The notes under the pieces are model-generated. The model made no database searches. It was not told where the DNA came from and was given only the letters and a program-made list of their open reading frames with translations. Below, one piece after another: positions 4,790 through 34,837 of a stretch of 57,271 bases of DNA (positions are counted from its first letter, which is position 1; each line of letters opens with the position of its first letter). The translations under genes and the position numbers were made by a program. The DNA comes from Flavobacteriaceae bacterium. Its GTDB lineage: Bacteria; Bacteroidota; Bacteroidia; Flavobacteriales; Flavobacteriaceae. The stretch covers positions 1 through 57,271 of the forward strand of contig JABXHN010000080.1 of assembly GCA_013373635.1 (NCBI GenBank). Reading direction: 5' to 3'.

Positions 4790-4799
4790 TAAAAGGAGG

Positions 4800-17833: not shown

Positions 17834-19453
17834 TTAGTTGGAGCTAACCAATTTAAGTAGCTCTTTATCGTGTTGTGGTCCAACATGTGACTTCACATTA
17901 AAGAACATCGTTTGTGTTTTCTTTTGGTCATAGGTAGGCCATTCGATTAATTGATCGTGATTAGGATTTCCATTACGAGCAAAATTAATCCAAGCACCGC
18001 TCACTTGCTTGGCTACTGCATCGGTGTTTTCATTACTACCTCCAGTCATTCCATAGCACTCCGCTACATTGTCAAAAACAAAAGGCAGTTCAAAACAGTG
18101 CATCGATTTGTATTTTCCTCCAAAAACAGGAGAAGACCATTCAAAGAAATACATATAGACATCTGCACCGTCTTTTATACTTGATTTGACATTAGCTTGA
18201 TGAACGGCTCCTGGTCTAAATAGTAAATCAACATCTACGAGATCCCCTGGGTTTTCAAGATGAGGATAGGCTTTCTTTACCGCTTTTTTATAAGCGTCTG
18301 CCTTGTCTTTGTATTGCTGGGCAATAAACTCATCTACTTTTGCTTGATCATTATTTGGAATTCCTCTCCACAGCGTGGTAAAGAATTCGTTTTTAACGGT
18401 TCCAATCATCAGTGGAATGTCTTTTGAGAGCTCAAGAGACTCTGCATCTAAGATGTCATGAGGAAGTACCGCTCCATCGACAGAAGGTCCCCAATTGTAT
18501 CCAAAAACTCCAGTATCGGTTCCAGTTGCTCTAAGGCGTTCGTTGATAGTTTGAATCGCTTTATTACCTGCAATTCTCAAATCTTCCCAAGGAATGGTTT
18601 GGATTTGATCTACAGTTGACGCATCGAGTCCTAAATTCTTAAGTACTTCTTCTGTAACGGCACGAGTGGTTTCAGTCGTTGCAGAGGCTCCTCTAAAAGC
18701 TCCTGATTGATTAATGGCCTTGTGAAACAATCCATGGGCAGAAGGCATCGCCATCAACGCATTGACTTTAGCTCCTCCTCCTGATTGACCAAAGATGGTC
18801 ACATTGTCAGGATCTCCTCCAAAGTTTTCAATATTGTTTTTGACCCAAGTGAGTGCCGCCTGCATATCGAGTAATGACTGGTTGGCAGAATGCTTGTATT
18901 TCTCGCCATATGCAGAGAGGTCTAAAAATCCTAATATGTTTAATCGGTGATTAATCGATACTACCACAACATCTCCATTTTTACTCAAGTTTTTTCCATC
19001 GTAAGAAGGCAGTTCTTCACTAGATCCAGCAGTAAATCCACCTCCGTGAATCCAAAACATAACTGGTCTTTTCTTTCCGTCTGTAATACTCGGTGTCCAA
19101 ACGTTTAAAACTTGATTGTTTTCTCCTGGATATCCCCAAGAGTGATTAAAGACAAATTCAGATTCGTCATTAGCAACCGCTGTTGGGGTCATCAAATGAG
19201 CTACAGGTCCGTAAACCAATGCGGAGCGAATGCCCTCCCAATTAGCAGGTGGTTGTGGATCTTCAAATCGTTTTGATTGAGCATAAGGAATTCCTTTGTA
19301 GGTGTAAATCCCTTCTTGAATTAATCCACGAACCCTCCCGTGATTCGTATTTGCAACAGCAATGTCATTTCCGAATGAAACATTTTGTGCCCAGAGACTG
19401 CTGCAACTAAAAAGAAATGCAGCTACAATTGAAAATAGGTGTTTGTTTGACAT
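17834..19453 (-). CDS. Type-B carboxylesterase, exported
   Basis: A 539-residue carboxylesterase with a cleavable signal peptide (MSNKHLFSIVAAFLFSCSSLWAQ). The triad is S224 in FGQSGGG, E356 in TVKNEFFT and H452 in MHCFELPF, with an HGGGFTAGS oxyanion motif (about 136-144). The family hydrolyses carboxylic esters; the natural substrate is unknown. It is divergent from the Nudix-family regulator at 19601 and their shared 147-bp region holds a 15-bp palindrome (19531-19545) also found, in variant form, before the rhamnosidase operon. Control by that regulator is therefore plausible. A second esterase gene lies downstream behind a terminator hairpin. Confidence 0.87.
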   Translation of the reverse strand: MSNKHLFSIVAAFLFSCSSLWAQNVSFGNDIAVANTNHGRVRGLIQEGIYTYKGIPYAQSKRFEDPQPPANWEGIRSALVYGPVAHLMTPTAVANDESEFVFNHSWGYPGENNQVLNVWTPSITDGKKRPVMFWIHGGGFTAGSSEELPSYDGKNLSKNGDVVVVSINHRLNILGFLDLSAYGEKYKHSANQSLLDMQAALTWVKNNIENFGGDPDNVTIFGQSGGGAKVNALMAMPSAHGLFHKAINQSGAFRGASATTETTRAVTEEVLKNLGLDASTVDQIQTIPWEDLRIAGNKAIQTINERLRATGTDTGVFGYNWGPSVDGAVLPHDILDAESLELSKDIPLMIGTVKNEFFTTLWRGIPNNDQAKVDEFIAQQYKDKADAYKKAVKKAYPHLENPGDLVDVDLLFRPGAVHQANVKSSIKDGADVYMYFFEWSSPVFGGKYKSMHCFELPFVFDNVAECYGMTGGSNENTDAVAKQVSGAWINFARNGNPNHDQLIEWPTYDQKKTQTMFFNVKSHVGPQHDKELLKLVSSN

Positions 19454-19530: not shown

Positions 19531-19545
19531 GTGTAATAGTTACAC
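19531..19545. promoter_or_regulatory. Palindromic operator candidate GTGTAATAGTTACAC
   Basis: Arms GTGTAA and TTACAC flank a 3-base centre, in the region between the exported carboxylesterase and the divergent Nudix-family regulator. Sites of the same 15-bp GTGT-N7-ACAC form occur at 28027-28041 and 34702-34716. Location beside the regulator's own gene suggests autoregulation. Confidence 0.5.
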
Positions 19546-19600
19546 AATATAACATTTATTTTGATATTTTTCACTAACTTGCACTACCAAATCAACATGC

Positions 19601-20344
19601 ATGAAATCAATTAGTTATTTAAGTCACTTGTCGGTCGATAATGTGATTTTTGGATATCACAACAAACAGCTCAAGGTGCTCTTAATGAAACTTCGAAACA
19701 ACGGTCATTGGATGTTACCAGGAGGTTTTGTGAAGGAGGATGAATCAATTTTAAATGCTGCTAAACGCGTTGCTCACGAGCGCACAGGTCTTGATCAATT
19801 GTATTTAAATCAATTCAAAACCTATGGTGATCCTCAAAGAAACAAGGATTCTAGAATTGAAAAACAAAAAGTTTATCAGAAATATACCTTTGATCAAAAG
19901 GAAGTCAATATTGTCGATTCTTATTTTGTGTCTATTGGTTATTACACTTTAACTGAGTTTTCTAAAGTTGAAATTCAATTAGGACCAGTTGATGAAGATT
20001 GTCAGTGGTTTGCATTAGATGAAATACCACATCTACTCTATGATCACAATCAACTGATTAAGGATGCCTTAATAGCACTTCGTTTTCATGTGGATCACTA
20101 TCCTATTGGTAAAAAACTACTCGAAAAGAAATTTACCATGCCTGAGATACAAGCATTGTACGAGACCATTTTAGAAAAGTCTATCGATCGCAGAAATTTC
20201 TCCAAGAAGATCATGAAGTCAGGTATTCTCATTAAACTCGATGAGCAGCGTAATATAGGTGCTCATAGAGCTCCCTATTTATATACCTTCCACGAAGAAA
20301 AATACGCTGAAGCACTTCAAAATGGGATTGCTTCATTCTTTTAA
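19601..20344 (+). CDS. Nudix-domain transcriptional regulator (NrtR/AraR-like)
   Basis: The 247-residue cytoplasmic protein has an N-terminal Nudix domain (1-150) and a C-terminal winged-helix part (about 155-247). The Nudix box at 42-64 keeps G42, E48, R56 and E60 but lacks two of the conserved glutamates (V57 and R61 in RVAHERTGL), so hydrolysis is unlikely and the domain probably senses a sugar or nucleotide ligand. Proteins of this build act as sugar-responsive repressors in Bacteroidetes (AraR of Bacteroides is one) and as NrtR elsewhere. It is followed after 9 bp by an esterase gene and is divergent from a carboxylesterase. The ligand is unknown; arabinose, rhamnose or xylose derivatives are options given the neighbours. 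Confidence 0.75.
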   Translation: MKSISYLSHLSVDNVIFGYHNKQLKVLLMKLRNNGHWMLPGGFVKEDESILNAAKRVAHERTGLDQLYLNQFKTYGDPQRNKDSRIEKQKVYQKYTFDQKEVNIVDSYFVSIGYYTLTEFSKVEIQLGPVDEDCQWFALDEIPHLLYDHNQLIKDALIALRFHVDHYPIGKKLLEKKFTMPEIQALYETILEKSIDRRNFSKKIMKSGILIKLDEQRNIGAHRAPYLYTFHEEKYAEALQNGIASFF

Positions 20345-20353
20345 ATTTTTAAA

Positions 20354-21373
20354 ATGAAAAAAATACTTCTACTTCTCGTTTTTGTTTCAACGACTTTATT
20401 CGCACAAAATAAAGGAAGAGTTGTTCTCGATAGTTTGTATTCTAAAGTATTGGAGAATAAAATGGGGGAATCTCCCAAAAGAGCAGTAGCTGTATATTTA
20501 CCACCTAATTACGATTCTACGAAACAATCGTATCCTGTTATCTATTTCTTACATGGATTTTTTGGAGATCACACTGTTTTAAATGAATTTTCAGAAGTGT
20601 TAGATCATGCCATTGAGCAAAAGAAAATCAAGCCATTTATATTGGTTGTAAGTGATCAAAAGACTAGTTATTTCGGAAGTTTTTATTCGAACTCTAAGGA
20701 CTTTGGGAGATGGGAAGATTTTACGGCCTTTGATTTAGTTTCCTATATGGATACTAATTACAGAACTATCAAAAATGCTTCAAGTAGAGGTATTACGGGT
20801 CATAGCATGGGAGGATATGGCGCTTTAAAAATTGCAATGCGACACCCCGATGTTTTTAGTAGTGTGTACGCTATCAGTCCCGGTGCCTTAGATGTAGTTC
20901 GGGAATACGGACCTAATAGTGATACTTTTAAAGTATTATCAACCTACAATTCATACGAGGATATTAAACCATCTCATTATTTTTCATTAGTGATGTTAGC
21001 ATTTGCAAAATCTTGGTCTTCCAATGCCAATCGCCCCCCTTTTTATTGTGATATGCCTTTTGAATATCAAGGAGATGAATTAATTGTTCACAAAGAAATA
21101 CTGGAGAAGTGGCAAAAGAATATGCCGGTATATATGTTAGAGGATAATTTAGAAAATCTACAAAAACTTACTGCGATTAAAATGGATTGGGGGAGAAATG
21201 CAGGACTTCGTTTTACGCAACAATGTGAAATGTTTAGTCAGCGTTTAGAGAATTTGGGAATTAAGCATTTTGCTGAAGAATATATTGGGACTCATACCAG
21301 TGGGATCTATACTATGGACGGTAGAATTCCAAATTCAGTACTTCCTTTTTTCAATGATTATCTGAAGTTTTAG
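20354..21373 (+). CDS. Exported esterase of the esterase D/feruloyl-esterase-like family
   Basis: A 339-residue alpha/beta hydrolase with signal peptide MKKILLLLVFVSTTLFAQ. The family hallmark is clear: YLPPNYDSTKQSYPVIYFLHGFFGD (read as two short motifs) and nucleophile S151 in GHSMGGYGALK. The late HTSGIYT supplies the likely catalytic His. Members include feruloyl and acetylxylan esterases and S-formylglutathione hydrolase; the exported form in a carbohydrate cluster favours removal of acyl or phenolic groups from glycans. It is cotranscribed with the Nudix regulator. The 3' end overlaps the convergent gene by 23 bp. Substrate not determined. Confidence 0.8.
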   Translation: MKKILLLLVFVSTTLFAQNKGRVVLDSLYSKVLENKMGESPKRAVAVYLPPNYDSTKQSYPVIYFLHGFFGDHTVLNEFSEVLDHAIEQKKIKPFILVVSDQKTSYFGSFYSNSKDFGRWEDFTAFDLVSYMDTNYRTIKNASSRGITGHSMGGYGALKIAMRHPDVFSSVYAISPGALDVVREYGPNSDTFKVLSTYNSYEDIKPSHYFSLVMLAFAKSWSSNANRPPFYCDMPFEYQGDELIVHKEILEKWQKNMPVYMLEDNLENLQKLTAIKMDWGRNAGLRFTQQCEMFSQRLENLGIKHFAEEYIGTHTSGIYTMDGRIPNSVLPFFNDYLKF

Positions 21374-21710
21374 ATAAGCTTAGGTGACGATATTTTCGGT
21401 ATTCTTCAGGGTCAATTTCCATCATCAAAAAGATAGAAGACAATGTCTTTCCATGAGGGTCTAAAGCCAAAGATCGCGTAACCCCTGAATACAAAGCAGC
21501 TTCCAAAACAAAATTAAATGCGTGAAGATGAGGTAATTCATAACGAGTAACCGACCCTTTGATACGTTCATTAAAATAGCTTTTTACTTTTTCTTCAGTA
21601 ATTTGTTTTTTTAAAAACAAATAATCCAATTCATTGTATGGGATGAGTGACAAATTTGAAATGTTTCCTTTATCACCTGCTCTTGAATGTGCTATATCAC
21701 CTAATTTCAT
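21351..21710 (-). CDS. AtuA C-terminal-like small protein
   Basis: A 119-residue cytoplasmic protein that begins MKLGDIAHSRAGDKGNISN, the signature opening of the ferredoxin-fold C-terminal domain found in AtuA-type proteins (HSRAGDKGN is highly characteristic). In many proteobacteria this segment is fused to the larger AtuA domain; here it is a separate gene whose ATG overlaps the AtuA stop by 4 bp (ATGA), which fits a two-subunit enzyme. Biochemical activity is not established for this pair. It is the last gene of the rhamnosidase operon. Confidence 0.82.
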   Translation of the reverse strand: MKLGDIAHSRAGDKGNISNLSLIPYNELDYLFLKKQITEEKVKSYFNERIKGSVTRYELPHLHAFNFVLEAALYSGVTRSLALDPHGKTLSSIFLMMEIDPEEYRKYRHLSLSKTSDNH

Positions 21711-23056
21711 GATTCAATAGTTTTGGTGGTGAGTTGAATAGTTGGTAAATTTTCATCAATTAGAATTGATTGGACTGCGATAATTTCTTTAACGCTTTTG
21801 GAGGCGCCTCCACCAGCAGCTGGGCCATTAGTATACAGCGCTTCTACTTGTTGTCCTACCGTGATTGCTTCTTCTTTAGTTTTAGTTCGTAGCGCGACTC
21901 TTATTCGAATCTCGTTTGGACTTTCCTCCACCTGATCTTTTGAAAGCGAATTGACACCGATGAGGTCATAGTTAGCATCGTACTTGCTCAAACCTAAATG
22001 ATGTAGTTTGCTTTTGATGATTTTTAAAGCGAGACTTGCTCTTTCTTTTGCTTGATATCCACCATAACTCATCTGTCCTTCACCGATATAACCGTCTTTA
22101 TAGCCTAGAGAAACTTTTAGCTTCCCTGTTTTGTTTGCGCCCGTTGCTCCGCTGATCTCAACTTGATTTGAAGCTAATTCTCTAAATCGAACAGATGAAA
22201 AATCAGCAATGACATCTGGAGTGATATAATTTTTTGGATCGTGTATTTCGTAAAGTAATTGTTCAGTGCAGGTTGCTTTGTTAATGATTCCTCCACTATT
22301 GGGGACCTTTGTTATTGTGTAATGTCCATCCGAAGTAACTTTAGCAATTGGAAAACCGATTGCTTCAGGATTGGGCACTTGTTTCTTGTCTAAATCATTA
22401 AAATAGCCTCCGCATACTTGAGCTGCACATTCTAATAAATGTCCCATTGCAGTAGCCTTACCTAATAAATCGCTGTTGTCAATATCCCAATTGAATTCAT
22501 AAAACAGAGGTGCCATAAATATAGCGGGATCGGCAACTCTTCCAGTAATGATAATGTCAGCATCTAATTTTAATGCTTCTACAATAGGCCGAAGCCCCAA
22601 ATATGCATTAGCAGATACGAGTTGATTTTTTAGTACTGATATGGAATCCCCACTTTCTATAAGTTTGTAATCTTGATCATTGATGGCATTGATTACATCA
22701 TCTCCACTAATTGCAACCACCTTTAGTTTTTTTATTTTTAATTGCTTAGCGAGTTCAATTATTTTGTCAACTGCTGCTATGGGATTAGCAGCACCCATAT
22801 TTGAGATGATTTTAATGTTTTTTTTAACACAAATAGGAAGTACTGCTTTGATTCTTTCTTCTAAAAGTGGATCGTAACCTAGTTGAGGATCTTTCAGTTT
22901 TTGAAGCTGTGCTAGAGCAATAGTGCGTTCAGCTAAGCATTCAAAAATTAAGTAATCGATAGTTCCTTCTTCTGCTAATTGAACTGCGGGTTGAATAAGA
23001 TCACCAGAATAACCAGCTCCCGAACCAATTCGTATGGATCTTTTACTCATTTTCAT
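21707..23056 (-). CDS. AtuA family protein (DUF1446), N-terminal large domain
   Basis: The 449-residue protein starts with RIGSGAGYSGDLIQPAVQL and TIDYLIFECLAERT, which are the family hallmarks, and ends near AAGGGASKSVKEI. The name derives from acyclic terpene utilisation in Pseudomonas, but the reaction is unproven and the family occurs widely in genomes with no terpene pathway. It carries no signal peptide. It sits 1 bp after a CitMHS transporter gene and overlaps the small AtuA-like gene by 4 bp. The transporter pairing suggests the substrate is a di- or tricarboxylate or similar acid. A second ATG (23050) is a possible alternative start. Confidence 0.82.
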   Translation of the reverse strand: MKMSKRSIRIGSGAGYSGDLIQPAVQLAEEGTIDYLIFECLAERTIALAQLQKLKDPQLGYDPLLEERIKAVLPICVKKNIKIISNMGAANPIAAVDKIIELAKQLKIKKLKVVAISGDDVINAINDQDYKLIESGDSISVLKNQLVSANAYLGLRPIVEALKLDADIIITGRVADPAIFMAPLFYEFNWDIDNSDLLGKATAMGHLLECAAQVCGGYFNDLDKKQVPNPEAIGFPIAKVTSDGHYTITKVPNSGGIINKATCTEQLLYEIHDPKNYITPDVIADFSSVRFRELASNQVEISGATGANKTGKLKVSLGYKDGYIGEGQMSYGGYQAKERASLALKIIKSKLHHLGLSKYDANYDLIGVNSLSKDQVEESPNEIRIRVALRTKTKEEAITVGQQVEALYTNGPAAGGGASKSVKEIIAVQSILIDENLPTIQLTTKTIES

Positions 23057-23057
23057 A

Positions 23058-24338
23058 TTATAAGGGTAAGTAACCTAAAAGTATGGAACTAATAGTCATC
23101 ACTAGGCTAATTAAAAACGCATACTTGAATGTAAATTTTTGATGTTGTGCTAAATCAATACCACATAGACCAATTAATAAAAAGGTAGAAGAGGTGAGAG
23201 GGCTTAGAGGAAAACCAGTGGTCATTTGTCCCATCAGGGAAGCATGTGCCATTTGAATAGGGGTGATGTCCATGGTAGATCCAACCTCTGACAATACTGG
23301 GAGTACGCCAAAATAAAAGGAGTCGGGGTCAAAAAACAAACTCAAGGGCATACTTATTACACCTAGAATCGCAGGAATATGAGTTCCCAATTGTTGTGGA
23401 GTTACAGCAACAATTCCGCCAGCAAGTTCATTGATCATTCCAGATTCTTTTAAGATACCTGTAAAGATACCAGCAGCAATAAGTAGACTTGCCATTAGTA
23501 AGGCTGATTTTGCATGAGAATCGATGCGTTCTTTTTGTTCTTTTAGTTTAGGAAAATTGATGCTTAACGCCAATACAGTACCCAACATAAAAATTATAGC
23601 TGGAGGTAAAATTCCTTTTACTAGACAGTAGATAACTACAATAGTGAGAAGAATATTAATACTAAAATAGATTCGGTCCTTTCTGGTTAGTTTACTAGTA
23701 GGATGAATTTCATTGGTTGATGTCGCTTGGTAATTTAATCTTTTGGCTTCTTTTTTTCCTAAAAAAGCAGCTATTAGTAAGACAGATGCAATTCCTATTA
23801 GTTGAGGTACCATTAAAGATTGGTATAAGGTAGCGACCTCTAAATTAAGTGCAGATGCTGCTCTTAGTGTTGGTCCACCCCAAGGTACCATATTCATGGT
23901 TCCAGCTCCTAATGCAACAACAGCAGCTAAGATTCTTTTGTCCATTTGGAGTTCTTCGAACAGCGGTAGCATTGCGGGAATTGCAATTAAAAAGGTGACT
24001 GCTCCAGATCCATCGAGATGAACTAACATTGCTAAAATGGCTGTTCCTACGGTTATTTTAATGGGATTTTTGCCAACTTTTTTTAAGATGATTTCAATGA
24101 TGGGTTGAAACATTTTTGCATCGGTTAGAACTCCAAAAAATAGTATCGCAAAAATAAACATGGCTGTTATTGGAGCGATGTTTTTAATGCCACTGATTGC
24201 AAAATTTGCAGTTTCTGAGCCATATCCTGCTAATAAAGCACCTGCAATTGGTACCACAATGAGCGCTGTTAAAGCAGAAGTGATTCTAGTAAGAATTAGA
24301 ATCAATAGTGCTACTATTATAAAAATGGCTGTTAACAT
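23058..24338 (-). CDS. CitMHS family transporter (citrate/hydroxy-acid symporter-like)
   Basis: A 426-residue integral membrane protein with about 11-12 hydrophobic segments beginning at residue 2. The text [20 protein letters not shown] and [16 protein letters not shown] (about 110-165) matches the CitMHS family, which takes up citrate-metal complexes or other carboxylates by proton symport. [11 protein letters not shown] near the end is also typical. It lies 30 bp after the rhamnosidase gene and directly before the AtuA genes on the same strand. Given this, it may import the acid that AtuA handles; the actual solute is unknown. Confidence 0.85.
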
Positions 24339-24368
24339 AGAAGTTGATCTTGTTTACTAATTTATATA

Positions 24369-27300
24369 TTAATTATTTGAAATTACTTTAAAACTGTAAT
24401 TCCCAGATCCTATTTTAAGTTGAATCCTTTCTGATTCACTATCTAAAAGTTGAATTGCAGTTGATTTCTTAAGTTTTTTTCCAGACTCTCTAATATCATT
24501 GATGGAGTTTGCTTTTAAATAAACCGTTGCAGTTGTATTTGCTGGTATACTGATCGTATACAAAGTATGGTCTTCTTTTAATTCCCACTTGCTCTTGATG
24601 GTTCCATGCATGGAATCGTAATGACCTTCGGCCCATTTAAGTTGGTTGTTAGGATCAGGAGTTGGTTTTAAAACGATGGCTTTAAAGGCAACCGCTTTAG
24701 GGTCTCTTTGAATTCCTAAAGAATAGTTTTGCATCCAAGCTCCAATGGCTCCAAAAGAGTAGTGGTTAAAGGAATTCATGGAATTATTTCCTCCAAATCC
24801 ATTTTCAACAGTATAAGAGTTGAGTCGCTCCCAAATTGTTGTTGCTCCATTGACGACTGGATACAGCCAAGAAGGATACTGGTCATTGAGTAGTAGTTGA
24901 TAGGCAATGGCGTCATATCCGTTTTTTGAGAGCGCCTCATTAATAGCAGCAGTTCCAATAAAACCAGTCATTAAAGAGAATTTTGGACGTAGTACTCCAA
25001 GATCATCTTTATTCGATCTGTTGATGGTATTCACCAACATCTCTGCAGCTTTTTTTTCATTGTTACTGTGATAGGTGTTTAAAGCTAGAGGTATCGCATA
25101 AGAGGCTTGAGTGTCTACAATGCTTCCTTTTGTTGGCTTGATATAACCATCAGGTTTAGGGCCTAAAGTAAATGCTTCATAACCGGCACTGACACTTTTA
25201 AAGTTATTTGGGTTGAAATAAGTATTGTTAAAAAAGTCTTTTCGTTCGGTATATTTATTTTTGTATTTGGTTGCATCTTCTGTATATCCGAGAATTTCTG
25301 CGGATTTATAAATAATCTCTAAGTCGTATACTTGATAAGCATTCCACATTGCGGTATTGTCATTTTTTGAGTTTTCTGGGCTGAGCCAGTCACCTAGAGG
25401 TCCCTCGTCTAGGATTCCATCTTCATTTTGTTTACTCTCTAAAAAGTCGACATAGCGCTTCATCGCTGGATAGTGTTCTCTTAAGAGTTCTGTGTTTCCG
25501 TATTGTAGGTAAGTCTCCCAAGCCACCACAACTCCTGCAGATCCCCAAAGGGTTCCTCCAAATCCGCCTCCAACTGGAGCTACATCTGTAAATCGACCAT
25601 TAACAGCTTGGATTTCTCTCATGGCTAAGAGATGTCTTCTTAAAAATTGAGAGGCATCAATCATATAGGTAGCTGTTTTTGAAAAGACATTGATATCTCC
25701 ACTCCAACCCATACGTTCGTTGCGCTGAGGACAATCCGTTGGTATGGACAAAAAATTGGCTCTAGTGGACCAAGCAATATTATCCCATAGTCTGTTGACG
25801 TTTTTGTCGGAAGTCTTGTAGTCAGCTGTGAGTTGATCGACAGAAGAAATGACAATACTCTTTACATGATCAAGAGGAAGTGCTTTTTCGATTCCTGTGA
25901 TTTCAATGTAGCGATATCCGTGAAAGGTAAATCTTGGCTGGATGGTTTCAGCACCTCCTTTTTGAATGTAGATGTCTTGAGCGAGTGCAGCCCTAATATT
26001 CTCCAGCATGATCATGCCCACTTGGTCGCCGTATTCTTTTAGATTAGGGTAGGTAACCTCTGCAAATCGCAGGGTAATTTGAGATCCTTTATTGCCTTGT
26101 TGGAGTCTTATTTTAGGAACCCCAACCATATTCTGTCCCATATCGTATACAAAAACTCCAGGACGAACTTCTTCCACGCTTTGAGCTGTGAGTTCCATAC
26201 TTGGAATAACATTGGTTCCCATTTGTCCTATGAGTTGCATCTCACTAAAATCTAAATCGTATCCAATTCCGGTGGTTGCAGTAGTGTTTTGAAGTGGTAT
26301 TTCTACGCAGCTACTCCAATGGTGGTCATCAAAATCAGCTGAAGTCCATCCTTTTATTGCTTCCTCATCTCTAGCGTCGTAGATCTCCCCTTGAAAGAAA
26401 CTACCTACTTTGATTGGTCCCTCTTTGTAGTACTTCCAATCTTTGTCATTGGAGGTGATGATTTGTTCACTTCCATCTTCATAGCTAATGATTAATTGGC
26501 TCAACAGTGATTGACGATCTCCAAAAAAATTCCAATAATCTTCTCCTGAATAGGTGATGTTTCCACTCCACCATCCTTCTGCCAATAGCGCTCCAAGCAC
26601 ATTGTCTTTTTCAATAAGATCAGTAACATCATAGGTTTGATACATATGTGTTTTATTGTATTGGGTAAGTCCTGGGTTAAAAAGATCTTCACTAATGCGT
26701 TTTCCGTTTAAATAGAGTTCGTAAATTCCACGAGCAGTAGTATAAATTCTAGCCTTAGCTATTTTTTTGTCTTGTTTTTTGAATGAAGTTCTCAAGTGAG
26801 GCACTGCATTTTTACTTGGGTTAGCAATCATTAGTTCGTTCTTAGTTCCACCGACTACATAACTGTTGTTGTGAATTTTGATGTCCTTAAAGATTCCTTT
26901 ATAGTTGCTTAATTCTTCTTCGAACAAGGTATTGCTGGGTTCTCTTTTGTTTTTGATTTTGAGATCTGAGAAATAAGCTTTTTGATTGGCCTGCGTTTTA
27001 AAACCTATATCGGCAAGCATCGGAAAACTGATGTAATCATGTCCTTTTCCAATAGGATTTAAGTTAAAAGCGTTGTTGGCATAAGGAGATGAAGATGTAG
27101 CTTTATTTAATTTGAAATCATTGATGTAAAAATCAAATCCTCCCATTCCTCCGTCAATTACAATCTGATGTTGGTGATAGGCATTGGTTTGATTAATGAT
27201 ATCTGTTGGAATCTCAAAGCTTTTAAAAGGAATGTCTTCTTTGTCTTGCTGGTCGTATCCAACTCTATAGATATGGAGTTTAGCTTTACTTGAATTGTCT

Positions 27301-27947
27301 TTTAAAGAACTGATGTCTAATTCAACTGCGAAATAACTCTCATTGATATTGGATTGAACTCCCTGAATATTTTTGTTGAGATCCATTAAACGAGAATCAT
27401 TAGCTCCGAAAATAAAACTGGCTTTAGTGCTTTTTGATTTTTGGTCTAGTTGAAGTTTATAGGAGAGGTTAAATACCGATAAGTAATGAGAGGCTAGTGG
27501 AGTGTCTTCCATGGTGGTTCCAATCCACTGAGCTCCATTCCATGCGTTTATAGTAGTGTCTAAAAGTCCCGTTTCAAAAAAGGATTGAGATTGATATCTC
27601 TCGTTATGTTCATCCCAACTACTGACGTTCCACAGATATCTGGTTCTTGATTGTAATGGAGTCCCCTTGTATTGAATGGCAACTGAATGATCAGAAATCA
27701 CCTTTTTACTATCCCAAACCAATTCTTTCTGCTCATTGAATACTTGAATTTGATATGCGGTTTGTAATTGACCTCTTTTAGTCTGATCTGTTTGAATTTG
27801 CCAACTAAAGAGTGGTTTTTCAACATCAATTCCAATGGGGTTTGAGGTGTACTCTACTTTTAATTGAACTGGCTTTTGAGCATAACTAAATAAACTGCTC
27901 ATAACAATAAGTACAATAGCCAGTGTTTTTAGGTTCTTAGAATTCAT
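24369..27947 (-). CDS. Alpha-L-rhamnosidase, GH78, exported
   Basis: The 1192-residue protein has a signal peptide (MNSKNLKTLAIVLIVMSSLFSYAQ), an N-terminal Ig-like domain, an inserted lectin-like jelly-roll region (about 135-345) and the GH78 N-domain (ARGIYELYLNGKRISEDLFNPG in the text around 405-425). The catalytic (alpha/alpha)6 barrel carries the family signature DCPQRNERMGWSGD at about 735-748, with acidic residues of the active site, and GPLGDWLSPE further on. It removes terminal alpha-L-rhamnose in the periplasm. It is the first gene of the operon with the CitMHS and AtuA genes, and is divergent from the DUF1593 pair across a region with a palindromic operator candidate. No lipobox is seen. 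Confidence 0.92.
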   Translation of the reverse strand: MNSKNLKTLAIVLIVMSSLFSYAQKPVQLKVEYTSNPIGIDVEKPLFSWQIQTDQTKRGQLQTAYQIQVFNEQKELVWDSKKVISDHSVAIQYKGTPLQSRTRYLWNVSSWDEHNERYQSQSFFETGLLDTTINAWNGAQWIGTTMEDTPLASHYLSVFNLSYKLQLDQKSKSTKASFIFGANDSRLMDLNKNIQGVQSNINESYFAVELDISSLKDNSSKAKLHIYRVGYDQQDKEDIPFKSFEIPTDIINQTNAYHQHQIVIDGGMGGFDFYINDFKLNKATSSSPYANNAFNLNPIGKGHDYISFPMLADIGFKTQANQKAYFSDLKIKNKREPSNTLFEEELSNYKGIFKDIKIHNNSYVVGGTKNELMIANPSKNAVPHLRTSFKKQDKKIAKARIYTTARGIYELYLNGKRISEDLFNPGLTQYNKTHMYQTYDVTDLIEKDNVLGALLAEGWWSGNITYSGEDYWNFFGDRQSLLSQLIISYEDGSEQIITSNDKDWKYYKEGPIKVGSFFQGEIYDARDEEAIKGWTSADFDDHHWSSCVEIPLQNTTATTGIGYDLDFSEMQLIGQMGTNVIPSMELTAQSVEEVRPGVFVYDMGQNMVGVPKIRLQQGNKGSQITLRFAEVTYPNLKEYGDQVGMIMLENIRAALAQDIYIQKGGAETIQPRFTFHGYRYIEITGIEKALPLDHVKSIVISSVDQLTADYKTSDKNVNRLWDNIAWSTRANFLSIPTDCPQRNERMGWSGDINVFSKTATYMIDASQFLRRHLLAMREIQAVNGRFTDVAPVGGGFGGTLWGSAGVVVAWETYLQYGNTELLREHYPAMKRYVDFLESKQNEDGILDEGPLGDWLSPENSKNDNTAMWNAYQVYDLEIIYKSAEILGYTEDATKYKNKYTERKDFFNNTYFNPNNFKSVSAGYEAFTLGPKPDGYIKPTKGSIVDTQASYAIPLALNTYHSNNEKKAAEMLVNTINRSNKDDLGVLRPKFSLMTGFIGTAAINEALSKNGYDAIAYQLLLNDQYPSWLYPVVNGATTIWERLNSYTVENGFGGNNSMNSFNHYSFGAIGAWMQNYSLGIQRDPKAVAFKAIVLKPTPDPNNQLKWAEGHYDSMHGTIKSKWELKEDHTLYTISIPANTTATVYLKANSINDIRESGKKLKKSTAIQLLDSESERIQLKIGSGNYSFKVISNN

Positions 27948-28011
27948 AATTAATAGGTTGATGCAAGTATCAAATTAACTTGATCACAAGTTTTAGGTTT
28001 GGTTTGAGGTA

Positions 28012-28060
28012 TGAATATAATAAATTGTGTATTAATAACACAATAATAGTTGTATATTTG
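28012..28060. promoter_or_regulatory. Divergent control region with palindrome 28027-28041 and rightward promoter
   Basis: ATTGTGT and ACACAAT arms form a palindrome whose core GTGTATTAATAACAC (28027-28041) resembles those at 19531 and 34702. A rightward -7 box TATATTTG lies at 28053-28060, so the palindrome covers the -33 side of the DUF1593 promoter. Leftward, TATATTCA (28012-28019) is a weak -7 candidate for the rhamnosidase operon. A regulator bound here would control both directions. Confidence 0.5.
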
Positions 28061-28124
28061 TTTTAAGCTGTTAATTTTTAATCTAACTAATAGTGATTTA
28101 CCAAACAATAAACACAATAGTTTA

Positions 28125-29666
28125 ATGCTTATGAAAGACCTGAAATTGTTCAACAAACATCAATGGATTCTATTGAATTTTTTTGGTTTAATTCTTTTTA
28201 CGAGTTCTTTATACGCTCAGATAAGTAAACAAAATAAACCACGAATAGTCATTACTTGTGATCCTGAATTAGATGATAATAACTCTTTGATTCGATTTTT
28301 GCTTTACAGTACTGATTTTGATATTGAAGGCCTTGTGTATGCGAGTAGTCAATTTCATTGGAAAGGAGATGGTAAAGGAACGAAATGGTTTGTGGAAGGG
28401 AGAGAATATACCCGTTTTGGATTAAATATGGGGCCGATGGAATCATGGCGATGGTCTAAAGATGAGCGTTTTATACACGATGCAGTAGAAGCCTATGAAA
28501 AAGTATATCCCAACTTAATAGTTCACAACGCAGATTATCCGACTCCAGACTATTTAAAGTCAAAAATTAAATGGGGTAATATCGAATTTGATGGTGTTTT
28601 TAAAAAAGACACAGAGGGTTCCAATCTAATTAAGACTTTGATTTTAGATGATAAGCCAGGTCCATTATACATCACTGCTTGGGGAGGTGCTAGTACTATT
28701 TCTAGAGCGTTAAAGGCAATTGAGGATGAATTTGCATCTTCAAAAGAGTGGTCTCTTTTAAAAGAGAAAATTGAAAGCAAAGTTGTATTGTGCTTATCTG
28801 GAGATCAAGACAACACCTTTGAAAATTTTATCAAGCCACACTTTCCTGGTATTGAAGTGTTGAAGACAACCTTTTCTTCGACCCCATTAGGTTACAACGC
28901 TCAAAATGGTGTATCCGATGAGAATCAAATTTACTACAGTCCTAAATGGACTCATGAAAATATCCTTAACAGAGGGCCTTTAGGTTCACTTTACAGAGTA
29001 TGGGGTGATGGAAAGCAAATGGTCAAGGACGATATTTTTGATTTCTTTGGTTTTTCTGGATTAACTGAGGAGGAATTAAGAGCAAAAGGCTATGTGGTAT
29101 GGACCCCTCTAAAAGATAAAAATTCATTTTTAGGAGAAGGAGATACACATACCTATTTAAATTTAATTGATAATGGTTTGAGAGCTGATCAAGATCAAAC
29201 ATTTAATGGATGGTCTCGACAACAAATCGATGAATCGATTGATTTTGAAACGTTATCAGTTGACCGTAGTCAAGAGGTATCAAAAGAGTTGGATTATATT
29301 CCTGCTGTTCAAAATGGATTGGCTGCTCGATTTTTGTGGTCAGTAACTCCTGTCTTTAATGATGCGAATCACGAACCTAAGATTAGTGGCCCATTGGAAC
29401 ACAATGTAAGTGCTGGTAAGCAAATAAAATTAAAAGTTTCCATAACTGATCCGGATGGCGATCGTTTACAAATAAATTGGGTTCCTTTCAACACGGAGAA
29501 GTATTCAGGGGAACTGCTAATAGAAAATCCTTTCGAAGAAGAGGTAACTGTTTTAATTCCTTCTGAAGCAAAAAAAGGGGAAGCCATTCACTTAGTTGTA
29601 GAAGTGACAGATGATGGAATAATTCCGATGACTCGATATCACAGAATAATATTAAAGGTTGTTTAA
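28125..29666 (+). CDS. DUF1593 nucleoside-hydrolase-like exported protein, first copy
   Basis: The 513-residue protein has a signal peptide ending near SLYAQ (residue 31) and a domain with the inosine-uridine nucleoside hydrolase fold. The family's calcium loop is seen as TCDPELDDNNS (D46, D50, D51). After about residue 410 follows a C-terminal Ig-like domain (KIKLKVSITDPDGDRLQINW in short runs). I start at ATG 28125; an upstream in-frame ATG at 28050 lies before the -7 box and would add a non-signal leader. Family proteins are exported and are presumed to hydrolyse a glycosidic bond, but the substrate is unknown. It is followed by a paralogue with a 1-bp gap. Confidence 0.82.
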   Translation: MLMKDLKLFNKHQWILLNFFGLILFTSSLYAQISKQNKPRIVITCDPELDDNNSLIRFLLYSTDFDIEGLVYASSQFHWKGDGKGTKWFVEGREYTRFGLNMGPMESWRWSKDERFIHDAVEAYEKVYPNLIVHNADYPTPDYLKSKIKWGNIEFDGVFKKDTEGSNLIKTLILDDKPGPLYITAWGGASTISRALKAIEDEFASSKEWSLLKEKIESKVVLCLSGDQDNTFENFIKPHFPGIEVLKTTFSSTPLGYNAQNGVSDENQIYYSPKWTHENILNRGPLGSLYRVWGDGKQMVKDDIFDFFGFSGLTEEELRAKGYVVWTPLKDKNSFLGEGDTHTYLNLIDNGLRADQDQTFNGWSRQQIDESIDFETLSVDRSQEVSKELDYIPAVQNGLAARFLWSVTPVFNDANHEPKISGPLEHNVSAGKQIKLKVSITDPDGDRLQINWVPFNTEKYSGELLIENPFEEEVTVLIPSEAKKGEAIHLVVEVTDDGIIPMTRYHRIILKVV

Positions 29667-29667
29667 A

Positions 29668-31161
29668 ATGAAATCAATTTTTAAACTCCTACTCTTTTCA
29701 TCTTTAGCAGTTATTTCTTTAACTGTGAGTGCACAACAACGTGTTAAAACCATCATCACAACCGATGGTGAAATCGACGACGTAGATACCTTTATTCGTA
29801 TGCTTTTGTATGCCAATGAATTTGATATAGAGGGACTGGTGTATTCGAGCTCCATGTGGCATTATAGTGGCGATGGATTGGGTACAAAATTTGTTTCTGA
29901 AATGCCCATGACCAAAGAGATGTATGGAGCACAAACAGATCTGAGGTGGCCAGGGGTGAATTGGATGCAAGAACTCATCTTGGACTATGCTCGAGTATAT
30001 GATAATTTAATCAAGCACGATCCGAATTATCCAACGCCCGAAAAATTAATGTCCATGGTACGAGTGGGAAATATCGAATTTGAAGGGGAGATGGAAAAAG
30101 TGACTCTAGGATCTGAGTGGATCAAAAACAAATTACTTCAAGACGATATTGATGAATTATACTTACAAGCTTGGGGTGGAACCAATACCATTGCTAGAGC
30201 ACTAAAATCCATTGAAGAAGCATATGCTGATTCTGAAAATTGGGAAGCGATTCATAAAGCGGTTACGGATAAATCTATTATTTATACCATCATGGATCAA
30301 GATGCCACCTATAGGGACTACATTTCTAAAAATTGGCCAGATATTCGAGTGTATTACAACGCCTCTCAATTTGCTGCGTTTGCCTATCCCTGGAAACGTG
30401 TGGTGCCTAAGGAATTTCAAAAGTATTTAGAGGGGTCCTTCATGGGGCCGATTATCAATAACAGTGGGCCACTTCTCAAGAAATACTACTCTTATGGCGA
30501 TGGTCAAAAACAAGAAGGAGACGACGAGCATATTCATGGAGATCTTTCAAAAATTAAAGATGCTCAATGGGGGTCTTTTGATCAATATGCCTTCATATCA
30601 GAAGGAGATACTCCTGCCTATTTGCATTTAGTAGATTTAGGGTTGGATAATTATAATTATCCACATTATGGTGGATGGGGAGGGCGTTTTGCGCAATCAA
30701 AAGAAAACCCATTTAAATACGAAGATGGAGAACTCGTGGCTGATTTAAACCCAGAAACCGGTGAAAAAGATCCAATGTACCCTCAAACGAGATGGATCGA
30801 AGCAATTCAAAATGATTTTGCAGCTAGAGCAGCTTGGTGTGTGAGTGATTTTGAAGGGGCCAATCACGCTCCTCAAATTACTATTCAAGAACCCACAAGA
30901 CAAACGGTTAAAAGAGGTGCTAAAGTGAAACTGAATTTTACTTCTACTGATGTAGATGGAGATCAAATCACACATAGGGTTTGGAATTATGCCGATGTTA
31001 GTACTGCTAAATCAACTGTTGTGTTTTCAGATGTGGATGCTATAATCAAAGTCTCTAAAAAGGCAAAGTCTGGTGATGAGGTTCATATCATAGTGGAAGG
31101 AACAGATTCAGGAGTGCCAGCACTTACAAGATATAGAAGAGTGATTTTAAAAGTAGAATAG
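29668..31161 (+). CDS. DUF1593 nucleoside-hydrolase-like exported protein, second copy
   Basis: A 497-residue paralogue of the previous gene with signal peptide MKSIFKLLLFSSLAVISLTVSAQ. The metal loop reads TTDGEIDDVDT (D33, D37, D38), differing from the first copy (DPELDD) and closer to the canonical nucleoside hydrolase DxxxDD. The shared segment FDIEGLVY occurs in both, and the C-terminal Ig-like domain with TSTDVDGDQI is retained. I use ATG 29668, 1 bp after the previous stop, because MKSIFK begins a normal signal peptide. The pair probably forms an operon. A bidirectional terminator follows. Substrate unknown. Confidence 0.82.
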   Translation: MKSIFKLLLFSSLAVISLTVSAQQRVKTIITTDGEIDDVDTFIRMLLYANEFDIEGLVYSSSMWHYSGDGLGTKFVSEMPMTKEMYGAQTDLRWPGVNWMQELILDYARVYDNLIKHDPNYPTPEKLMSMVRVGNIEFEGEMEKVTLGSEWIKNKLLQDDIDELYLQAWGGTNTIARALKSIEEAYADSENWEAIHKAVTDKSIIYTIMDQDATYRDYISKNWPDIRVYYNASQFAAFAYPWKRVVPKEFQKYLEGSFMGPIINNSGPLLKKYYSYGDGQKQEGDDEHIHGDLSKIKDAQWGSFDQYAFISEGDTPAYLHLVDLGLDNYNYPHYGGWGGRFAQSKENPFKYEDGELVADLNPETGEKDPMYPQTRWIEAIQNDFAARAAWCVSDFEGANHAPQITIQEPTRQTVKRGAKVKLNFTSTDVDGDQITHRVWNYADVSTAKSTVVFSDVDAIIKVSKKAKSGDEVHIIVEGTDSGVPALTRYRRVILKVE

Positions 31162-31180
31162 AATTACTTCAGTATAAAGA

Positions 31181-31206
31181 AAGCCCATCTTACAGGATGG
31201 GCTTTT
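31181..31206. terminator. Bidirectional intrinsic terminator
   Basis: AAGCCCATC and GATGGGCTT arms (9 bp, perfect) enclose a 6-base loop and are followed by a T-run. The hairpin lies between the convergent DUF1593 and FG-GAP genes and can serve both. Confidence 0.85.
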
Positions 31207-31226
31207 TTGTTTCACAAGGGTGCTTT

Positions 31227-34200
31227 TTAATTAGATCTACTAAATAAAAGTACTTGATCTCTGTTTTGAGTCACGATATAATTCTCTTTTCCAGAAGCTG
31301 TTTTAATTTTAGCAATCTCTCTTCCATCTACAGGAATCACAATTCCACTTTGTGCTGGAGGAATTACTTCAAATTTGTCGGTGCCAGTTCCTCTGAGAAG
31401 TAATCCATTAGAAGCATCTAAACGACCAATAAAGGATTCGTATCGGTAATCATTTCCAACTCCGATAATGTCTGGATAATCGTCATTGTTGTAATCTGTA
31501 ATCATCAAATCAGTTAGAGGAGCAATCTGGACTTCTTGCGGAAGTGCTGTTACATTGAATTGATTGTTGCCTAAGCTTTCAATATAGATCGATAACTCGA
31601 AATTAGCTGTAAGCTTATGAGCATTTTGAAATTCTTCTTTGGTGTAGAATTCTTTGAGGTCTGTATTTGCGTAGTTCTTGTAGAATTTGAACTGTTTTCT
31701 AAAACGAGGACTTTGTTCTACTAAATTGTCTTTAAAAGCATAAGGATACGCTCTTTTAATGCTGTCTTTTCCTTTTTCGTAATAGAAAAGTACTGGATCA
31801 ACAGAGCCATTATTGTCCAGATCATCCGCTACAAGAGTAATCGGTGTTTGATCGCTTAGGTGTAAATAGTTGTTTGCTCCAATATTACCTGCTAAGATGT
31901 CGAGATCACCATCAGCATCATTGTCAAATAAAACAACAGAGCTCCATAGGCCCCTGTAGTCATCTAAATTTGAATGGTAACGCTCTAATCCATTTGTGCT
32001 GTGCAAGTATATCTTGATTGGTTCGAATTCACCTACAACTACCAGGTCTAGTAAACCATCTCCGTTGAGATCTCCCCATTTAGCATCGGTTACCATTCCC
32101 ATTTGATCAATATCTTTTATGATAGCAGCTCCACTGTCTTGAAGTCGGCCTCCTTGATTGATGAGTAATCGACTCGGTTTGGTTTGAGGGTATTCTCTCA
32201 AACGAGGACCTCCACCAACAAACACATCATCCAATCCGTCACCGTTATAATCTCCTACAGCGATTACAGAACCTTCGAAACTCTCATCAGCATTTTGAAT
32301 GCTGAACGTTCCTTTACCATCATTGATTGCGATATAATTATTTTGTTGTTGGTAGTTTTTGCGTTTAGAAGTGATGATCAAATCTAAGTCACCGTCATTT
32401 TCAAAATCAAAAGGACGGATACACTCTTCGATGTTTTCAAAGTAATCTTTTATTGTGAATAGGGCAGAGGAACTAAAGCTTCCATCAGCATTTTGAAGAT
32501 AGGCTGTGGGGAAATCAGATTCTGAAGATCCCAGAATGACATCTTCTAATCCATCATTGTTGATATCAGCTACCGCAAGACAAGGACCTGATTGAGAAAT
32601 CTTGTGTTGGATGAGTCGTTGTACACTGAAATCGTCAAAGTCGAGTTCCGTGTGAACAAAACTGAGGTTTTTATCGGCTGATACTTCATTGAAAATTGTT
32701 TGTTTTTGAGCTGTCGTGTTTGATGTACTGCTCTGTGAAGCATCCGAGTATTTTAATGCAATACTTTGGTCGGCTGCTATGTTAGAAAGTTGTTGCGTTT
32801 TTCCGTCAGGCCATATTACTGAAAGGGATTCCACAGAGCTTTGAGAGCCCAATCCAAAATGAACTCTTGGATCAACACTAGACATATATCCTCTTGTTAA
32901 GAACTGATTGTAGTATTGACTTTTTCCGTCAGCTGTTTTGATTTGAATTCGAGATCCAATCCCATTAGAATTGTTCTTTGGTCCTTGTAATTCAATCTTT
33001 AAGTAGTGATTGTTAATTGGTTGTTCCTTTTTGTTGAGACTGTTGTTGAACACAAATGCTTTATCATTAATGTTGTTTACTACATAGTCTAAATCTCCGT
33101 CATTATCTAGGTCAGCATATACTGCTCCATTAGAAAAAGAAGGAATGTTAACTCCCCAATCATCAGTGACATTGTCAAATTGGTACGAGTCTACGTTTTT
33201 GTATGCGTAGTTTGGAATTTTGACAGAAGGCATCGAATCGAGTAAGATCTCATGACTAGCAAATCGCTCGTATTCAAACTTAAAATTGATAAAATCCATG
33301 TCGGTGATGTCTCTTGGAAATCCATTGGTAATCATCAAATCTTTATAACCATCGTTATTTGCATCCATAAACAAAGGACTCCAGCTCCAATCTGTTTGAT
33401 AAACACCTGCCATCATTCCAATTTCGCTGTAAGGAATGCCAGTTGGATTTCCTTTTTGAAGCATGTTTCTAGACTGTTGAAACTCATAACCCCATTGATT
33501 ATTGTGAATGATATCTTGGTAATCCGATTTTCCCATGGTCGTCTTCTTTCTGTAATTGGTTTCTCCTAACATATCAACGGTGATAATATCATCGATACCA
33601 TCATTGTTGAAATCACCAGCATCATTTCCCATGGAAAACTTACTTTGATGCTTGAAATAGGAACTCATTTCATTTTTAAAGGTTCCATCTCTTTGATTGA
33701 TATAGAGCACATCATTGGTCAGGTAATCATTTGAAACATACAAATCCGTCCATCCATCTTTGTTGATATCGAGTGCAGCTATTCCCAGTCCAAATCCTTC
33801 AATGGTAATACCAGCTTCAAGAGATACATCTTTAAAAGTTCCATCTCCCATATTTTTATACAATTGATCGGTGCTTTTTGCTGATCCGTCTACAATTTTA
33901 TCTCTGTAATTAGTTGGGCTAAACTGTTCTTGTTCGTTGTTGAGCACATATAAATCGAGTAGTCCATCTTTATCGTAATCAAAGAACAATGCGGCCATGG
34001 TGTTTTTATCGTTGACAAGACCATACTCACTTGCCATTTCTTTAAATGAGATTTGATTATTTGAACCAATACCCTGATTGATATAGAGTTTATTTTCTTT
34101 TTTTCCCTCTAACATGGCGACACCCACAAAAATATCCTGCCATCCATCGCCATTGACATCCGCAACAGCAACTCCAGTTGACCAAAAGTCGGAAGAATTT

Positions 34201-34508
34201 AATCCTGCTTCATCGGTGATATCTTCGAATTTAAAATCTCCTTGATTGAGATATAATTTATTGGAAACTTGATTTCCAGTAAAGAACAAATCCATGTTTC
34301 CATCATTGTTAAAATCGGAAGCAGCAACGCCTCCACCATTAAAGATGTATTCATCAGTTAAGACATTGAAATCTTTGGTTTCAGTGATTTGGTTGTTGAA
34401 ATTGATTCCAGAGTGATCGGAATCGACCAGTTCATATAGTTTAGGGTTTTTGTTCGAGCATGAAAAGAGTGTAACACTCAAAAGTATGAAAGCAAGAATT
34501 TTCTTCAT
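31227..34508 (-). CDS. FG-GAP/VCBS-repeat lipoprotein with ASPIC/UnbV domain
   Basis: A 1093-residue lipoprotein (SVTLFSC, Cys17). It consists of many repeats of the form DFNNDGNMDLFFTG, DVNGDGWQDIFVG and DYDKDGLLDLYVL, each with a DxNxDGxxD calcium-binding loop, which build a beta-propeller. In the middle an ASPIC/UnbV domain is readable (GIGSRIQIKTADGK, DPRVHFGLGSQ, VIWPDGKTQ). Related surface lipoproteins are frequent next to SusC/SusD loci in Flavobacteriaceae and may bind glycans, but no substrate is established. It is divergent from susC across a 392-bp control region and convergent with the DUF1593 pair. It ends in the same terminator as those genes. Confidence 0.85.
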   Translation of the reverse strand: MKKILAFILLSVTLFSCSNKNPKLYELVDSDHSGINFNNQITETKDFNVLTDEYIFNGGGVAASDFNNDGNMDLFFTGNQVSNKLYLNQGDFKFEDITDEAGLNSSDFWSTGVAVADVNGDGWQDIFVGVAMLEGKKENKLYINQGIGSNNQISFKEMASEYGLVNDKNTMAALFFDYDKDGLLDLYVLNNEQEQFSPTNYRDKIVDGSAKSTDQLYKNMGDGTFKDVSLEAGITIEGFGLGIAALDINKDGWTDLYVSNDYLTNDVLYINQRDGTFKNEMSSYFKHQSKFSMGNDAGDFNNDGIDDIITVDMLGETNYRKKTTMGKSDYQDIIHNNQWGYEFQQSRNMLQKGNPTGIPYSEIGMMAGVYQTDWSWSPLFMDANNDGYKDLMITNGFPRDITDMDFINFKFEYERFASHEILLDSMPSVKIPNYAYKNVDSYQFDNVTDDWGVNIPSFSNGAVYADLDNDGDLDYVVNNINDKAFVFNNSLNKKEQPINNHYLKIELQGPKNNSNGIGSRIQIKTADGKSQYYNQFLTRGYMSSVDPRVHFGLGSQSSVESLSVIWPDGKTQQLSNIAADQSIALKYSDASQSSTSNTTAQKQTIFNEVSADKNLSFVHTELDFDDFSVQRLIQHKISQSGPCLAVADINNDGLEDVILGSSESDFPTAYLQNADGSFSSSALFTIKDYFENIEECIRPFDFENDGDLDLIITSKRKNYQQQNNYIAINDGKGTFSIQNADESFEGSVIAVGDYNGDGLDDVFVGGGPRLREYPQTKPSRLLINQGGRLQDSGAAIIKDIDQMGMVTDAKWGDLNGDGLLDLVVVGEFEPIKIYLHSTNGLERYHSNLDDYRGLWSSVVLFDNDADGDLDILAGNIGANNYLHLSDQTPITLVADDLDNNGSVDPVLFYYEKGKDSIKRAYPYAFKDNLVEQSPRFRKQFKFYKNYANTDLKEFYTKEEFQNAHKLTANFELSIYIESLGNNQFNVTALPQEVQIAPLTDLMITDYNNDDYPDIIGVGNDYRYESFIGRLDASNGLLLRGTGTDKFEVIPPAQSGIVIPVDGREIAKIKTASGKENYIVTQNRDQVLLFSRSN

Positions 34509-34701
34509 GATTTTAACTTTATTAAGTATAACCTTATAGTTGTTTATTATTAAGGTCTATGGTTTTAAGTTTTTTTGATTTAAAGGTTTTAAGAACCGTT
34601 CCTGTCAAATTGATTTGTAAGTGTACTTAAAAAATTGGAGTTATACAATTCTTAGGTGTTTAAATATTTAAATCAATTGTATCGCTTAATTTTAATAGAA
34701 T

Positions 34702-34716
34702 GTGTATATAAAACAC
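34702..34716. promoter_or_regulatory. Palindromic operator candidate GTGTATATAAAACAC
   Basis: The core is flanked by AAT and ATT, giving 7-bp perfect arms AATGTGT and ACACATT. It has the same 15-bp GTGT-N7-ACAC form as the sites at 19531 and 28027. It is about 190 bp from each flanking start codon, so which gene it serves is open. Confidence 0.4.
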
Positions 34717-34837
34717 ATTATTTGTAGAAACTTTTTTATGCATTCTTATACAAAATAAAAAAATCACAAATTATCATACAATTGATGTGTTTTTTTTACG
34801 CATTAATAAAATAATTTTTATATAATTGTTAACGAAA

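Follow-up and report, generated by a model that had tools for sequence, protein, structure and literature searches.

What do three copies of one palindrome do between the sugar-harvesting genes of a Flavobacteriaceae bacterium? The copies, all of the form GTGTN7ACAC, lie in a 57,271-base stretch of contig JABXHN010000080.1 (the whole of this stretch is called the window below), and the first stands beside a gene for a Nudix-type regulator. We think it very likely, from sequence comparison and analogy, that the palindromes are operators of this NrtR/AraR-type protein, through which it would co-control the neighboring genes. We favor this reading because the dyad recurs beside relatives of the regulator and because the operator of BtAraR, the L-arabinose repressor of Bacteroides thetaiotaomicron, has the same layout.

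19601-20344, + strand: regulator, 247 aa, with a Nudix-like domain and an NrtR/AraR winged helix
19528-19548, no strand: predicted operator 1, core 19531-19545, ATAGTGTAATAGTTACACAAT, between divergent carboxylesterase and regulator genes
28024-28044, no strand: predicted operator 2, core 28027-28041, ATTGTGTATTAATAACACAAT, between divergent GH78 and DUF1593 genes
34699-34719, no strand: predicted operator 3, core 34702-34716, AATGTGTATATAAAACACATT, between SusC and a divergent FG-GAP gene

The palindromes in the window and beside the regulator's relatives

The pattern matches at 19531, 28027 and 34702 and nowhere else in the window, letter for letter as the initial annotation had reported, and all three matches are intergenic, in agreement with its statement that they occupy only control regions of this cluster. 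Our gene map also agrees with it in placing a Nudix-family regulator (NUDIX and NrtR_WHD domains) beside site 1, site 2 between divergent GH78 and DUF1593 genes, and site 3 before SusC. Dinucleotide shuffles of the window gave a mean of 0.44 matches compared with the 3 seen, and 3 were reached in 1 of 100 shuffles. The center of operator 1 is 63 bp 5' of the regulator start and 85 bp 5' of the esterase start; that of operator 3 is 192 bp 5' of SusC and 201 bp 5' of the divergent FG-GAP gene. Relative to the extended form ATTGTGTN7ACACAAT, site 2 has no mismatch, site 1 has one and site 3 has two. A matrix derived from 17 dereplicated sites of relatives, with the window and its sister genome excluded, gave the window sites scores of 21.2, 19.7 and 17.7. 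Two million simulated bases held no position at 17.7, and the next-best window position after a weaker candidate at 51808 scored only 10.6. Scores from this matrix cover the window, 80 kb of the sister contig and a selection of other stretches; genome-wide counts come from pattern searches.

A profile scan of genome contigs, using a 16-sequence alignment, confirmed at least 575 relatives of the regulator. We kept 80 loci, namely one sister (L047, regulator 98% identical) and 79 others (1.39 Mb), and in the 79 we compared every 4-mer dyad W-N(s)-rc(W), with s from 0 to 15 and rc(W) the reverse complement, with the product of its word frequencies. GTGT-N7-ACAC ranks first, with 91 occurrences compared with 8.2 expected (z = 28.8). 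The second-ranked dyad is the overlapping TGTA-N5 (z = 12.6), and among 5-mers GTGTA-N5 leads, with 60 seen compared with 0.8 expected. Although 85% of the bases in these loci are coding, 86 of the 91 sites are intergenic; eight of ten control patterns, by comparison, were mostly or wholly coding or had very few matches. Conservation of the motif in related genomes, proposed in the initial annotation as a check, is thus borne out.

The sites also keep a preferred place. They precede the regulator in 47 loci (window and sister included), mostly about 60 bp before its start, a GH3-type gene divergent from the regulator in 40 loci (assigned by Pfam on one representative), and SusC in 36 loci (window included). 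A strict site lies within 400 bp upstream of the regulator in 35/35 Mucilaginibacter loci, 11/43 other loci and 4/16 loci of the window's own family, where other dyads in the same upstream regions average 0.53, 0.48 and 0.21, respectively. At a matrix score of 13 the upstream counts become 35, 27 and 7 relative to 0.3, 0.15 and 0.1 in shuffled upstreams, counts that are partly circular because the matrix was derived from the same loci.

The sites can further be placed relative to the −7 promoter element, whose consensus is TAnnTTTG. Among relatives it lies 39-40 bp away in 14 of 50 regulator-facing sites, while the other two target groups show 0-2 at any one distance. The window has one match at 28053-28060, 19 bp past the center of site 2, and the same scan gave none for sites 1 and 3. 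This is a weak indication that the promoter at site 2 may be occluded.

The regulator compared with BtAraR and other NrtR-family proteins

Judged by its sequence, the regulator belongs to the NrtR family, with an N-terminal Nudix-like domain and a C-terminal winged helix (NUDIX, 40.9 bits at 10-145; NrtR_WHD, 78 bits at 172-230; AraR_C, 31.4 bits; the latter two above cut-off). Its best solved relative is BtAraR (5bs6, E = 9.9e-33). An AlphaFold model built from a 24-sequence alignment (mean pLDDT, the predicted local distance difference test, 87.5) matched BtAraR chains at ranks 1-6 in the PDB and then Shewanella NrtR, the fold agreeing over the full length. The Nudix signature reads G42-FVKED-E48-SILNAAK-R56-V57-A58-H59-E60-R61-T62-G63-L64; two signature glutamates (57 and 61) are V and R, an impairment like that in AraR, where two or three of the glutamates are replaced according to its structural report (PMC4666351).

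That report describes BtAraR (BT0354; PDB 5bs6, 5dd4, 5ddg, 5deq) as an NrtR-family protein with the same Nudix-like and winged-helix domains, the operator layout GTGT-N7-ACAC, and SusCD and sugar genes among its targets. In the crystal with DNA the contacted bases are GTGT-TACTTTT-ACAC (positions 7-10 and 18-21), and in gel shifts 0.01-0.5 mM L-arabinose released the protein from DNA. In alignment, the window regulator retains R180, N181, K184 and R205 of the DNA-contacting residues, with R at K179 and H at K204, so that two of the six differ, one of them conservatively. Of the sugar-pocket residues, R86 and H131 are conserved, R34 is replaced by L and F36 falls in a gap, which leaves the trio R34, R86 and H131 incompletely conserved. 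On these two tested features the protein falls outside strict AraR membership, and with Arg34 lost any effector named for it is a prediction.

The two proteins share about 30% identity over the structure alignment, and their predicted targets differ: those in the window include GH78, DUF1593, AtuA and XylA/XylB genes, and none of araA, araB and araD was recognized among the window genes scanned against the family library, which covered part of the window's open reading frames (ORFs). BtXylR (BT0791), a predicted xylose regulator, resembles our protein in being an NrtR-family member in Bacteroidota with xylose isomerase and xylulokinase in its predicted regulon, as PMC3878776 and PMC4666351 describe it. 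It is compared here by description, and in the window some 20 kb separate the regulator from xylBA, which follow SusCD. Shewanella oneidensis NrtR (PDB 3gz5, 3gz6), an ADP-ribose-responsive repressor of NAD genes, has the same fold and domain order; the window regulator, in contrast, is surrounded by sugar genes rather than NAD genes and scores 102.6 bits on the NCBIfam model of that repressor, whose cut-off is 400.

A second NrtR-type regulator, 37% identical to the first, is encoded on contig C59 of the same genome (L176:975-1703) and carries M and N where BtAraR has K179 and R180, the main positions for DNA recognition. The same contig carries a one-mismatch site at C59:11722 before a sulfatase gene, with GH3 and glucoamylase-family genes following.

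Genes behind the predicted operators, in the window and elsewhere

The genes around the three operators, together with a further candidate site and a LacI-family gene, are as follows.

16221-17777, − strand: second carboxylesterase, downstream of the first on the same strand
17834-19453, − strand: carboxylesterase (COesterase), behind operator 1
20354-21373, + strand: esterase-family alpha/beta hydrolase, directly 3' of the regulator; the sister lacks a homologue here
21351-21710, − strand: AtuA_ferredoxin-like small protein, 119 aa, end of the GH78-CitMHS-AtuA run
21707-23056, − strand: AtuA-family protein, next in the GH78-CitMHS run
23058-24338, − strand: CitMHS-family transporter, about 30 bp after GH78 on the same strand
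24369-27947, − strand: GH78 alpha-L-rhamnosidase, behind operator 2
28125-29666, + strand: Sde182_NH-like (DUF1593) protein a, behind operator 2; ATG at 28125, longest ORF from TTG at 28050
29668-31161, + strand: Sde182_NH-like (DUF1593) protein b, following protein a
31227-34508, − strand: FG-GAP / UnbV_ASPIC repeat protein, divergent from SusC
34901-37963, + strand: SusC-type TonB-dependent receptor, behind operator 3
37969-39648, + strand: SusD-family protein, following SusC
39745-41229, + strand: FGGY kinase, best match XylB (305.6 bits, below the 380.25 cut-off)
41251-42576, + strand: xylose isomerase XylA (TIGR02630, 666 bits, cut-off 533.25)
42733-43740, + strand: LacI-family protein encoded 3' of XylA, possibly a second regulator
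50880-51740, − strand: creatininase-family gene, behind the candidate site at 51808
51808-51828, no strand: weaker candidate operator before the creatininase-family gene, ATTGTGTAAAAATTACAAATT, matrix score 16.0

We infer binding, repression, operon structure and effector by analogy with BtAraR. An apo dimer would bind GTGT-N7-ACAC, each winged helix contacting one half-site, and repress, and a pentose-like effector in the Nudix-like domain would turn the winged helices so that the DNA is released. Operator 1 would then govern the regulator itself and the carboxylesterase, operator 2 the GH78-CitMHS-AtuA-AtuA_ferredoxin run and the DUF1593 pair, and operator 3 SusC-SusD-XylB-XylA. Beyond the range of the initial annotation, the regulator would also act on contig C16, at a GH3 gene, and it may act on the creatininase-family gene. 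The proposal in the initial annotation that the regulator binds the palindromes and co-controls its neighbors gains support from the relatives and the BtAraR layout; its gene list was incomplete, lacking the XylB/XylA genes behind SusC/SusD, the C16 GH3 gene and the probable operator at 51808, and it counted as members AtuA and CitMHS, which appear to be accessory. The effector is most likely a pentose or a pathway product. Our best guess is D-xylose or a related pentose, because XylA and an XylB-like kinase lie directly behind SusC/SusD and operator 3, an arrangement found in both the window and the sister. The 95 relatives' loci contain no XylA/XylB, so xylose is not, on this evidence, the shared signal of the branch.

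The C16 gene encodes a 782-aa GH3 protein, and a perfect site at C16:139308, matrix score 20.4, precedes it by 45 bp; the sister retains this site with one spacer change. Muricauda (L062/L063) has a GH3 gene of 60.5% identity to it, oriented divergently from the regulator, and ATTGTGTTAAATATACGCAAT lies between the two genes. Across genomes of the window's own family (30 loci scored of 32 matches), a site scoring at least 13 accompanies 7/16 GH3 genes where the regulator is present and 0/14 where it is absent, and six of the seven adjoin a regulator. In two Pontibacter loci (L100 and L103) the regulator lies near a GH3 gene, a DUF1593 homologue (52 and 51%) and a creatininase-family homologue (65 and 61%), and in L100 an operator heads a GH3-DUF1593 run adjoining the regulator; neither locus has a site before the creatininase gene itself. 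The site at 51808 is probably an operator of the creatininase-family gene.

A variant dyad like TTGTGAAGTGAAGCCACAA stands 48-59 bp before C16-type GH3 genes in L187, L189 and L191 (G075, G108 and G037). These genomes also have NrtR-type paralogues a few kb away, and the variant is perhaps the operator of a paralogue branch.

Gene linkage provides a hint rather than a test. Besides the regulator the window has 41 genes of at least 110 aa, 15 of them assigned to the proposed regulon; at 40% identity and 60% coverage, at least one of the 95 relatives' loci contains a homologue for 8 of the 15 regulon genes, compared with 1 of the 26 remaining genes. For four of the eight the homologue comes from one Rhodocytophaga locus (L093), and for two it comes from the same pair of Pontibacter loci; the creatininase gene joined the set after the Pontibacter loci had been seen, and SusD and FG-GAP are common families. 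L093 carries a CitMHS-AtuA-AtuA_ferredoxin run (53, 50 and 59% identity) and a carboxylesterase, the latter a 106-aa edge piece, some 4-10 kb from a regulator whose upstream site is weak (matrix score 11.7).

The sister genome (G199) has 19 strict GTGTN7ACAC places, three of which, all on one contig, have cores identical to those of the window. Apart from two exchanges, the two genomes share their gene order from the window's left side to the right-hand side of the cluster. In the first, the esterase, AtuA and CitMHS genes that the window has between regulator and GH78 are missing from the sister; AtuA was not found anywhere in its genome, in a search run without a positive control. From this absence we take AtuA/CitMHS to be accessory members. 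In the second, about 10.5 kb separate site 2 from the DUF1593 pair in the sister.

Sister contig C30:25620-39102 (L158:5620-19102): run of DeoR, fucose-isomerase-like protein, transketolase halves, ribose-type binding protein, ABC ATPase and permease, FGGY kinase, esterase and the DUF1593 pair, behind operator 2

The fucose-isomerase-like protein was not found in the window's genome (again without a positive control). The binding protein is of the ribose type (CUT2 transporter) and the kinase is glycerol-kinase-like. The run presumably resembles a D-apiose pathway, a resemblance that our searches leave unsupported: the isomerase had no PDB sequence match at E 0.01, and a literature search, with subscription papers outside it, found no paper on that pathway. 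The run is possibly a branched-pentose pathway. At site 1 the flanks are 90.5% identical between the genomes, with all 14 differences outside the operator. At site 2 they are 71% identical, and homology does not extend past the operator's right edge. The site 3 and C16 regions are 98.7% and 96.6% identical, which makes conservation there uninformative.

More tentatively, and with some doubt on our part, these data may describe a widespread and undescribed sugar branch of the NrtR family, having the AraR operator layout and an altered sugar pocket, with operator and regulator fixed and catabolic runs exchanged behind them, and responding to a pentose other than arabinose. The kind of switch (family, fold and operator layout) is already known, and the gene set under the regulator looks undescribed; in a literature search on Nudix/NrtR sugar regulators that left out subscription papers, only PMC4666351 and PMC3878776 were relevant, and a separate search met no paper with the term DUF1593. 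If the operator assignment is right, it provides a branch of Nudix-type sugar regulators, spread over Bacteroidota, with an operator and a regulon that can be tested, ties little-understood families (DUF1593, AtuA with CitMHS, FG-GAP/ASPIC proteins and creatininase-like hydrolases) to one sugar signal, and offers in two sister genomes a seeming exchange of catabolic cargo behind a retained operator.

Counter-evidence and rival explanations

Several results weigh against assigning the palindromes to this regulator. In the whole assembly (2,526,726 bases, 97 contigs) GTGTN7ACAC occurs at 14 places compared with 21 for the reversed pattern. Our own ORF calls put 9 of these 14 places within ORFs and 5 in intergenic DNA. 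Site 3 is one among many two-mismatch places for the extended form, and a coding place (L003) scores 18.0 on the matrix, above site 3. Conservation in the sister speaks to constraint only at sites 1 and 2. Of the 79 relatives' loci 35 come from one genus, and outside Mucilaginibacter a strict site precedes only 11/43 and 4/16 regulators; in these two groups a few A/T-only dyads are equally or more frequent upstream of the regulator. Among 6-mer dyads AAATGT-N7 outranks the GTGT-N7-ACAC dyad, and the control GTGT-N9-ACAC is intergenic in 12 of 19 cases. No site scoring at least 13 precedes the ten other C16-type GH3 genes of the family (58-63% identical), five of which come from genomes that contain the regulator, and XylA, XylB, GH78 and DUF1593a have no homologue in the 95 relatives' loci.

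The comparison of promoters with genes suggested in the initial annotation is thus weak evidence by itself: the bare pattern is not rare, and its counts in window or genome carry little weight alone. Coding and intergenic labels moreover depend on our gene caller, which missed the regulator in L064 and took an AraR-like paralogue in L106. The intergenic five are the three window sites, C16:139308 before GH3 and one adjoining a gene read as recA. A presence test of TTGTGTN7ACACAA across family genomes (10/24 with the regulator at E ≤ 1e-30, 24/175 without; Fisher P = 0.002) is likewise weak evidence, three of the ten (G100, G117 and G196) having only copies of TTGTGTCC-TGC-GGACACAA, which resemble another element.

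That the sites serve some other regulator (the LacI-family protein at 42733-43740, a Crp-like global regulator or the C59 paralogue) seems to us unlikely. The LacI gene does follow XylA, and the genome does hold a second NrtR-type gene, on a contig with a one-mismatch site before a sulfatase gene. The dyad, however, accompanies relatives of the window regulator, and none of the 95 loci has a LacI homologue. The Crp-like motif of Bacteroides, given as wwwTATGTTnTAnAACATAwww in PMC3878776, has a different spacing, and the C59 paralogue has lost two DNA-contacting residues (K179 and R180) to M and N.

A narrower alternative, in which operator 1 alone is functional in self-regulation and carboxylesterase control while sites 2 and 3 are chance or relics, is quite improbable. 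It draws on the two mismatches of site 3, like those of many other places, and on surroundings too similar in the sister to be informative. Against it, a second site before SusC is common among relatives, the 36 loci with a SusC-type target cluster including the window, and site 2 is retained where its right-hand flank is non-homologous in the sister. That all three palindromes arose by chance in A/T-rich intergenic DNA, as the genome count below its mirror control might suggest, is extremely improbable given the 91 dyads compared with 8.2 expected in relatives, 86 of them intergenic, their fixed place before regulator and SusC, and the high matrix scores.

Three minor observations concern other elements and genes. 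TTGTGTCCTGCGGACACAA or its complement recurs in G100 (three copies), G117 and G196 and looks like a different conserved element. GTGTGCTAGGCACAC is intergenic in the window's genome (G000, L002/L004 region) and in the sister (L180:8177), on the downstream side of the gene read as recA; with a matrix score of 7.8 it is likely a terminator stem rather than an operator. Read by eye, window positions 2201-5714 hold proline-racemase-like, aldehyde-dehydrogenase-like and DapA-like genes in a row, resembling a run for hydroxyproline breakdown.

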